DNA from: a virus
IMG/VR virus record: IMGVR_UViG_3300031705_000002
Location: 30,958-94,957 of that record
DNA: 64,000 nt
Direction: 5' to 3' (one strand)
The translations under genes were made by a program, and so were the position numbers. This document shows positions 56,042 through 57,889 of the stretch, one piece after another. The first letter of the stretch is position 1. The number at the start of each line of letters is the position of its first letter. A model generated the notes under the pieces. That model did not search any database. It was given only the letters and a program-made list of their open reading frames with translations, and was not told where the DNA came from.

Positions 56042-56644
56042 CAATACTGCTTACATCGGAACGCGCTTGGACTTTAATTAGGTTAAGAGAGTTAAAAAAC
56101 TGAGTTCGATGTAGGTATCTTATTAATGGGAAGCAGAGTTAGTAGGATAAAGCCCCAGAAAGCTCTGCCAACCATTTGATTTACTCTTGTCCAATCAGTG
56201 GGAAAGATATTACCGTTTGTAAAATGGCTCACTGTTAACCTCAAGAGGAACTGATCTAGAAATAGTTCAACCAGAGATAACATGCCCTTAAGGTTAATTA
56301 AAGTTAGAGTTGACTCTAACAGCCGCGATATACCATATCAAGGATCACAACCTTGCAAGAGTTTTTAGCTTAACTTTCTCGTGATATAGTTAACATGGGT
56401 ACATCCCTATCATCCACCGAGTTGAAAATATTCTATATCAGTACAAATGCTAAGTGCAAGAGTCATAACACGGTTGATCTCGTGAAATGACTGATAGAGA
56501 GAGTTTTATTATTATTCACTGTCTAATCTGCCCTTGAGGTGAAGTAGACTTAAGCGTGCAAGTCGTAGGTGATTATTAATTTAGAGGTATGGGTATATTC
56601 CCCATTAAGACATCTAGCGCACCTCTTAACATTAAACACACACC
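56042..56644 (+). ncRNA. Candidate large structured non-coding RNA (about 600 bases)
   Basis: No credible gene in 603 bases, yet it is packed with inverted repeats. Examples: TACATCGGA/TTCGATGTA (56052-56060 with 56105-56113); GCAGAG/CTCTGC (56133-56138 with 56163-56168); CCATTT/AAATGG (56172-56177 with 56222-56227); GTTAGAG-TTGA-CTCTAAC (56303-56320); CAAGG/CCTTG (56339-56343 with 56351-56355). Further: AGTCATaaCACG with CGTGaaATGACT (56461-56492, symmetric internal loop); GACTT/AAGTC (56547-56551 with 56560-56564); AGAGGT/ACCTCT (56583-56588 with 56621-56626) enclosing ATGGG/CCCAT. Size and the nearby tRNA-like element recall the large phage RNAs ROOL and GOLLD, but I see no proven match. 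Confidence 0.5.
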
Positions 56645-56935: not shown

Positions 56936-57109
56936 ATGGCACTTACTAAATCAGATTTAAAGAAAGAGTTGGTGGCTTATAAAAGACACCTAGCACACGA
57001 AATCACTCAAAACAGAGGAGGATTATTAAAGCTAAAACTACACGATGAGGTAGAGGCTACATTCAAAGAAATACAAAACTCATTAAGTAGATTAATACTT
57101 AAACTTTAA
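56936..57109 (+). CDS. Small helical protein, unknown
   Basis: 57 residues (MALTKSDLKKELVAYKRHLA, then HEITQNRGGLLKLKLHDEVE). The ATG at 56936 follows the previous stop closely; the TAA at 57107-57109 is directly followed by the tRNA-like minihelix. Basic, helical; function unknown. Confidence 0.5.
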   Translation: MALTKSDLKKELVAYKRHLAHEITQNRGGLLKLKLHDEVEATFKEIQNSLSRLILKL

Positions 57110-57152
57110 GAAACAGATGGTCAATAGAGAGGTTCGATTCCTCTCTGTTTCA
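57110..57152 (+). ncRNA. tRNA-like minihelix: acceptor stem plus T-arm, no D or anticodon arm
   Basis: GAAACAG (57110-57116) pairs perfectly with CTGTTTC (57145-57151). The canonical T-arm AGAGG-TTCGATT-CCTCT (57128-57144) stacks directly on it, and A57152 is a normal discriminator. Only 11 bases (57117-57127) replace the D and anticodon arms; CCA is not encoded. It cannot be a decoding tRNA. Such a minihelix is the minimal substrate of RNase P, so it may be a processing signal between two mRNAs. Alternatives are a decayed tRNA or an old attachment site. Confidence 0.65.
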
Positions 57153-57189
57153 CTAACAATCAATCAATTAATAAACTAAAGTAAATCAA

Positions 57190-57789
57190 ATGAACACAAC
57201 TGCACAATCAACAGCAATCATCACTGAAACTCCAAGAGTAGTAAGTGTAATGCCAACAAAGAACACTAAAGTATTCCAATTAGTGGTACGCTCAGAACGT
57301 GAGAAACCAATGAAGGAAGGTAACGATGGTGACTTTAACATATTTATGGCAGGATTCGCTGTAAATGAACCTGAAAGATTAATTGCTTACAGAACAGTAT
57401 CAGATCAATACTTAGACGCCTACGGCATATCATATGACGCAGTAACAGGAGATATACTTTCACCAGAAGGATATACTACTCTTCAAGGTCTAAAACGTCA
57501 AAACACTGACGAAACATTTCCAGATGTACACCCAGAGTGTAAGATTTCGGTAAATGAAACATTTGAGGCTAGAACTTGGGTAGGGAATGACGGTAGTAAA
57601 AAGAGTCAAAACCCTAAGATTAACCCTAAAACAAAGGAAACACTCTACAATAAAGGTAGAGCTATCTATTTGAACAGAACACTAACGTTTGATACCACTA
57701 AAGAGGATGTATACATCACTCATGATGGTTCAACACCTACTCAAGCAGTAGAAATAGTAGGTTCTGAGTTCGGAATACTTAACGCATAG
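57190..57789 (+). CDS. Abundant early-region protein, possibly single-strand-binding, unknown
   Basis: 199 residues. The N-terminus has TEVTPR-like beta segments (VVSVMPTKNTKVFQLVVRSE), then FNIFMAGFAVNEPERLIAYR, RTWVGNDGSKKSQNPKINPK and IYLNRTLTFDTTKEDVYITH. The beta-rich pattern with aromatic and basic residues could fit an OB-like single-strand-binding protein, as expected next to the polymerase, but no signature is decisive. It is flanked by the minihelix upstream and a good hairpin downstream, so it may be a separate, stable transcript. Confidence 0.5.
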   Translation: MNTTAQSTAIITETPRVVSVMPTKNTKVFQLVVRSEREKPMKEGNDGDFNIFMAGFAVNEPERLIAYRTVSDQYLDAYGISYDAVTGDILSPEGYTTLQGLKRQNTDETFPDVHPECKISVNETFEARTWVGNDGSKKSQNPKINPKTKETLYNKGRAIYLNRTLTFDTTKEDVYITHDGSTPTQAVEIVGSEFGILNA

Positions 57790-57818
57790 TAATTAGTTTG
57801 AATGGCTAATGATAAGAA

Positions 57819-57846
57819 TGGGGAGGAATATGAGAACTCCTCCTCA
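57819..57846 (+). terminator. Hairpin after the 199-residue gene
   Basis: TGGGGAGGA (57819-57827) pairs with TCCTCCTCA (57838-57846), one G-T pair, ten-base loop, followed by CTCTTATATT. Probable terminator or 3' stability element. Confidence 0.6.
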
Positions 57847-57889
57847 CTCTTATATTAATAGCTAAAAACAACACCTAAACAAAAAACCA

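Follow-up and report, generated by a model that had tools for sequence, protein, structure and literature searches.

What could a phage gain from a tRNA-like element that cannot decode, set between two genes? The question is raised by a 43-nt stretch in the window that we analysed, a DNA segment of 64,000 nt comprising bases 30958-94957 of a 94,957-bp virus record. The original prediction held that a free-standing tRNA minihelix starts there exactly after a stop codon, that it has the form of a minimal RNase P substrate, and that it might cut the transcript ahead of the following gene. After comparison with relatives, the locus reads as follows:

57110-57152, + strand: minihelix, GAAACA GATGGTC AATA GAGAGG TTCGATT CCTCTC TGTTTC A, 43 nt
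56936-57109, + strand: upstream 57-aa open reading frame (ORF call only), whose TAA (57107-57109) abuts the minihelix
57110-57115, + strand: acceptor 5′ strand GAAACA, pairing with 57146-57151 (covariation in relatives)
57116-57122, + strand: micro D-hairpin G-A-[TGG]-T-C (7:13 and 8:12 pairs in relatives)
57123-57126, + strand: 4-nt linker AATA, the slot of the tRNA anticodon arm (by comparison with orthologous elements)
57127-57145, + strand: 6-bp T-stem GAGAGG/CCTCTC with the canonical T-loop TTCGATT (57133-57139)
57146-57151, + strand: acceptor 3′ strand TGTTTC (covariation in relatives)
57152-57155, + strand: discriminator A and CTA tail at the place of CCA (the window reads ACTA)
57190-57789, + strand: downstream 199-aa gene of unknown function, whose orthologues (~28-37% identity) keep the element upstream

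The element and its family

As predicted, the minihelix follows the TAA without a gap; 37 nt separate its end from the ATG of the 199-aa ORF. It was also expected to be unable to decode, and this holds: the anticodon arm is absent from its sequence, ARAGORN finds no tRNA at 57110-57152, and the Rfam tRNA model (RF00005) gives 18.5 bits, which does not meet the cut-off of 29, so that it cannot be counted as a tRNA. It is the sole tRNA-like place that this model detects in the 94,957-bp record, where the element occurs as a single copy. No Rfam family reaches its gathering cut-off on the window stretch or on the elements of its relatives. For instance, the tmRNA model gives only a 17-nt T-arm match in the window (11.7 bits vs a cut-off of 84), and tmRNA was ruled out here by the mere 11 nt between the acceptor strand and the T-stem, when these are drawn with 7 bases and 5 bp. 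The tRNA-like domain of tmRNA resembles the element in having an acceptor, a T-arm and a D-loop without a proper D-stem, and no anticodon, but the phage element has neither a tag reading frame nor pseudoknots, and its acceptor and T-stem are only ~11 nt apart.

An exact search with the 3′ half brought up three further viral contigs, and a search with the downstream protein one only, in which the layout recurs but the stems differ. Many more copies came from a pattern based on the shared parts; the element totals given here, which rest on simple ORF calls and incomplete contigs, are lower bounds. A stricter pattern including the CTA tail matched at least 54 stretches in viral contigs, at least 50 of which were counted with the fold, and a structural scan of 1.41 Mb found at least 104 places, corresponding to at least 82 unique elements at no fewer than 57 loci. 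The same scan came up empty on reversed and on Markov-resampled sequence. A covariance model built from the relatives scores the window copy at 59.9 bits (E 1e-14), although this copy was itself among the 47 training sequences. Because of this score and the empty controls, the window minihelix is not a product of chance. The original prediction was correct that the element is real, but it is not a lone oddity: the search in related phages that had been suggested places 57110-57152 in an RNA family that had no previous Rfam entry and of which a contig can carry as many as 13 copies.

The copies come almost all from viral contigs. Among 84,980 bacterial and archaeal species genomes, the strict pattern matched one stretch only (L125), which does not show the fold and is due to chance. 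In a scan of 395 Bacteroidota genomes, of each of which only the top candidates were scored, the covariance model detected a single copy, lying between two ORFs that resemble phage structural genes. The element is absent from nearly all bacterial genomes.

The window record is assigned to a crAss-like phage because of two protein comparisons: its portal protein is up to 34.6% identical to Crassvirales portals, over 99% of its length, and several crAss-like phages are among the best matches of its DNA polymerase. Kin of several other carriers infect Bacteroidota (Flavobacterium, Chryseobacterium and Maribacter phages, and Bacteroides-type crAss-like phages). The carriers mostly resemble viruses of Bacteroidota, but the hosts of the contigs themselves are unknown and, since their GC content ranges from 0.31 to 0.59, other hosts are possible. 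The 199-aa gene region gave no match to named phages in nucleotide or protein BLAST; when an element was compared with these phages by BLAST, ordinary tRNAs were among the matches listed. When 18 named phages were searched with the model, only cr130_1 and cr125_1 gave convincing matches. Those inspected in Maribacter phage Panino were T-arms of ordinary tRNAs, and the one in MW202828 lay in a tRNA-like stretch that is not a minihelix. The original prediction knew of no described use of such an element in phage operons, and we found none in open-access papers, subscription journals and most preprints being outside the search.

Fold and invariant parts

The fold was assessed in an alignment of 47 sequences. 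Pairing was observed in 98.3% of cells, vs 44-52% when the partner was slid by 1-3 columns. Twelve of the 14 pairs have changed on both sides with pairing kept; cells changed on both sides number 280 against 72 expected, and none of 500 shuffles reached the observed pairing percentage or covariation score. In the acceptor (1-6 with 37-42), 98.9% of cells are paired and all six pairs change on both sides. Complementarity in the acceptor and T-stem was, however, partly used in collecting the sequences, so the unbiased evidence for the fold comes from pairs 7:13 and 18:36, neither of which served in selection. Bases 7 and 13 are paired in 46 of the 47 sequences (four pair types), bases 18 and 36 in 42; pair 8:12 is A-U or U-A.

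The layout first drawn, with a perfect 7-bp acceptor, a canonical T-arm with a 5-bp stem, and neither D-arm nor anticodon arm, had to be replaced by 6 + 6 bp and a D-hairpin. A seventh acceptor pair is possible in the window copy (G7:C36), but the family has six, pair 7:36 being broken in 30 of the 47 sequences. The canonical T-loop is present as described, on a T-stem that gains the pair 18:36. The anticodon arm is indeed missing, but the D-arm is not wholly so, as a vestigial hairpin (W-UGG-W) is kept at its place. These comparisons give an architecture of three helices: an acceptor of 6 bp, a micro D-hairpin of 2 bp that carries a (U)GG loop, and a T-stem of 6 bp. Minimal elements measure ~41-46 nt. 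The acceptor stacked on the T-stem retains the 12 bp of tRNA, with the anticodon arm lost. The minimum-free-energy fold of the window copy alone lacks the acceptor stem, which consequently rests on comparative evidence.

The GG at the start of the linker is found in all 77 unique elements gathered by a search in which it was no condition; 21 of these do not contain the search word ATGGT. This GG (57119-57120 in the window) likely docks on the T-loop in the manner of tRNA G18 and G19, a tertiary contact that we infer. Across the family the invariant parts are the T-loop and this elbow GG, while stem sequences vary freely. Such a pattern would also suit a decoy, that is, a released minihelix that titrates host proteins binding the elbow, for example EF-Tu, T-arm modification enzymes, RNase P or nucleases of tRNA-directed defence. 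A decoy, though, could sit anywhere and be transcribed alone, yet the position at the stop codon and the gene order are conserved, and the window record has one copy only; we regard this role as very unlikely.

At the CCA position there is a tail of the form C-(U/A/C)-A, with CTA, CAA or CCA in relatives. C74 is present in 51 and A76 in 49 of 67 elements, complete CCA occurs mainly in L100 (as NCCA), and most copies lack it. The true tRNA genes of Maribacter phage Panino also have CTA-type tails.

The 199-aa protein has no PHROG match. A protein search collected its orthologues, and a model match was observed just upstream in 14 of 15 orthologue loci, all in crAss-like relatives; the fifteenth (L187) has a T-arm match only. 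Some of these loci are near-identical contigs, and they cannot be taken as 15 independent cases. In several orthologous elements the anticodon-arm slot contains an insert of variable length, up to ~60 nt, which often forms a hairpin but has no regular anticodon loop; the inserts are mutually unrelated. Because they differ in this way, the elbow and the stack are deduced to be the conserved part, the anticodon domain being free to vary or vanish. In L181 (1547-1944), three tRNA-like elements stand in tandem before the 199-aa orthologue, the inserts in their anticodon slots being unrelated, and three near-identical contigs also have three elements in a row.

A prophage attachment site or the remnant of a tRNA gene was another candidate, and a host tRNA with the same 3′ half together with a phage integrase had been named as its signature. 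Although tRNA 3′ halves are common in phage attachment sites, here both acceptor strands are present and covary, and phages carry several different copies. No tyrosine integrase, the only type searched for, was found in the 94,957-bp record, and the 3′ half has no match with up to two mismatches in the 395 Bacteroidota genomes (the true host is unknown). On these grounds an attachment site was ruled out, and almost no credence is left for this explanation as a whole. Debris of a decayed tRNA or tRNA cluster was likewise rejected, given the covarying acceptor strands and the absence of tRNAs above cut-off from most of the array phages tested.

Placement between genes

The elements occupy a particular place. 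For 62% of them there is a stop codon upstream at -8 to +15 nt, vs 6.2% for random places in the same contigs, the commonest arrangements being a one-base overlap, direct abutment or a distance of 7-8 nt. By contrast, only 9.8% fall inside a same-strand ORF of at least 100 aa, against 46% of random places. Co-directional ORFs flank the element in the sense orientation in 57 of the 82 unique copies listed and in the antisense orientation in five, and because of this difference the element most likely acts as RNA.

Arrays were observed as well, with at least 13 matches in one record and at least eight in another. In L052 and L100, most small genes have their own copy behind them. Within one phage the stems differ and the fold is the same, so the copies are not simple sequence duplicates. 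In L052 the next start codon is usually 13-15 nt away. The gene-element-gene spacings in arrays include, for example, a stop, the element 7 nt on, and an ATG 14 nt after it. A structural spacer, blocking read-through or re-initiation between adjacent genes without any cleavage, would fit this next-start distance in L052 and the tight distance to the stop codon. Any hairpin would serve for that purpose, however, without an invariant T-loop or GG elbow, which makes a mere spacer highly improbable.

The distance to the upstream stop (0-8 nt) is far tighter than that to the downstream start, an asymmetry that would also suit a 3′-end cap. In such a scheme only the 3′ side would be processed, by RNase Z or trimming followed by CCA addition, and the upstream mRNA would be protected by its tRNA-like end, much as in plant viruses or MALAT1; the CCA that some phages encode outright (NCCA in L100) agrees with it. 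Still, the acceptor/T stack is itself an RNase P substrate, from which a stable uncut cap would need protection, and several phages have extra hairpins just upstream that a cap does not require. We consider a cap unlikely.

In several phages hairpins flank the element. One of at least 5 bp starts within 9 nt after the discriminator in 39 of 81 cases (18% in shuffles), and one of at least 6 bp ends just before the element in 15 of 82 (4% expected), as expected if these sites become mRNA ends. In the related phages L135 (2619-2635), L141 and L067, the same hairpin, GTGTCTTTGAAGACAC, lies between the stop codon and the element, as if to protect a 3′ end made by the cut. In L100:2943-6965, a second small hairpin comes after several elements that encode CCA, as does a shared leader like GTTGTAAACCAAT.

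Cleavage by host RNase P as the proposed explanation

The reading that we favour, with a probability of roughly 0.68, is intergenic tRNA punctuation by host RNase P, probably aided by RNase Z or 3′ trimming. In a polycistronic phage transcript, the minihelix would be seen by host RNase P as a precursor tRNA and cut just 5′ of the element, directly behind the upstream stop (between 57109 and 57110 in the window), while RNase Z or 3′ trimming would probably cut behind the discriminator base. The operon would, thus, be divided into separate mRNAs and the 43-nt minihelix discarded; in the window, the 57-aa ORF would be parted from the 199-aa gene. The benefit could be independent stability or translation of each gene's mRNA. 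As there are no RNA data, transcription across the site, cleavage by RNase P, cleavage at the second end and the benefit are all inferred.

RNase P punctuation is preferred because acceptor/T hairpins are RNase P substrates and the elements are placed serially between genes. Hairpins made of an acceptor and a T-stem-loop are established substrates in vitro (PMC11143913), and the family has the 12-bp stack and T-loop that such a substrate requires, in keeping with the minimal form originally claimed for the window copy. The suggestion that the transcript is cut here is also supported comparatively, by covariation, the invariant T-loop and GG, the strand and stop-codon placement, and the synteny with the 199-aa gene, although no cleavage has been demonstrated. 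As the window record has a single copy, the dicing of an operon rests on the relatives.

Two observations count against the RNase P reading. Firstly, most copies lack a complete CCA. The 3′ RCCA pairs with a GGU of RNase P RNA, an interaction that is helpful, not essential. It is also known that 3′ CCA helps RNase P, a phage T4 tRNA dimer being processed efficiently with CCA rather than UAA (PMC11143913). Secondly, 15 of the 82 unique copies overlap the stop codon by one base (gap -1), its last base serving as base 1 of the acceptor, and a cut at the usual place would remove that base. It is possible, though untested, that base -1 pairs with base 73 in some of these copies and so displaces the cut; otherwise, cleavage would follow translation or the messages would be used once.

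A bolder version supposes a dedicated and repeatedly deployed phage punctuation that is tied to translation. As the element abuts or overlaps the stop codon, the terminating ribosome would have to leave before the element folds, and in gap -1 copies RNase P would take the last base of the stop, leaving a single-use upstream message. This version is speculative, and we give it little weight.

Punctuation by tRNAs is known from mitochondria and apicoplasts, for instance in Plasmodium, where tRNAs are excised from polycistronic transcripts (PMC4995348). The phage case is similar in having tRNA-shaped elements on the sense strand between co-directional genes, where cuts by RNase P and RNase Z are expected to part the messages. 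By contrast, the cuts would not release a functional tRNA: there is no anticodon arm, the inserts of orthologues are unrelated, the minimal form has ~41-46 nt, and host enzymes would be needed. Synthetic RNase P substrates made of an acceptor stem and T-stem-loop (McClain, Altman; PMC11143913) share the minimal hairpin, the 12-bp stack and the T-loop, but the phage element is natural and evolutionarily conserved, and has a micro D-hairpin with GG and a CTA-type tail in addition. Host RNase P is also known to act on other phage RNAs, namely M3 RNA and the C4 antisense RNA of P1 and P7 (PMC11143913), but these are single loci with other structures and not a recurring intergenic mark.

Tails of messages offer a further parallel. 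Plant mitochondrial t-elements and the tRNA-like 3′ structures of viruses and MALAT1 are non-decoding elements that direct end formation, as we propose for the phage element, although their settings are eukaryotic or RNA-viral and they are not arranged serially between genes. If cleavage were confirmed, natural minimal RNase P substrates with no decoding left would act as serial gene separators in DNA phages, which would be using an essential host ribozyme to set their operon structure. There would also be a rule, readable from sequence, for the starts and ends of phage mRNAs, and a large natural series of variants for testing the requirements of RNase P and RNase Z.

Such elements can be mistaken for pieces of tRNA or tmRNA by annotation pipelines. 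In both cr130_1 (NC_055901; L162:4032-4300) and cr125_1 (NC_055900; L163:2414-2863), an annotated tmRNA overlaps the minihelix, which has its own complete acceptor despite the overlap. In cr130_1, Rfam detects a permuted tmRNA immediately 5′ of the element. In cr125_1, the start of the annotated tmRNA coincides in part with a RAGATH-9 RNA, and ~1.4 kb upstream of this tmRNA there is a Hatchet ribozyme.

Two further observations concern the window. A near-perfect long hairpin (57802-57867) lies directly 3′ of the 199-aa gene and is possibly the 3′-end structure of its message; an Rfam match of this hairpin to a plant miRNA is below threshold and surely due to chance. Additionally, ~250 nt without a listed ORF (56400-56640), upstream of the region of short ORFs, may hold another structured RNA.
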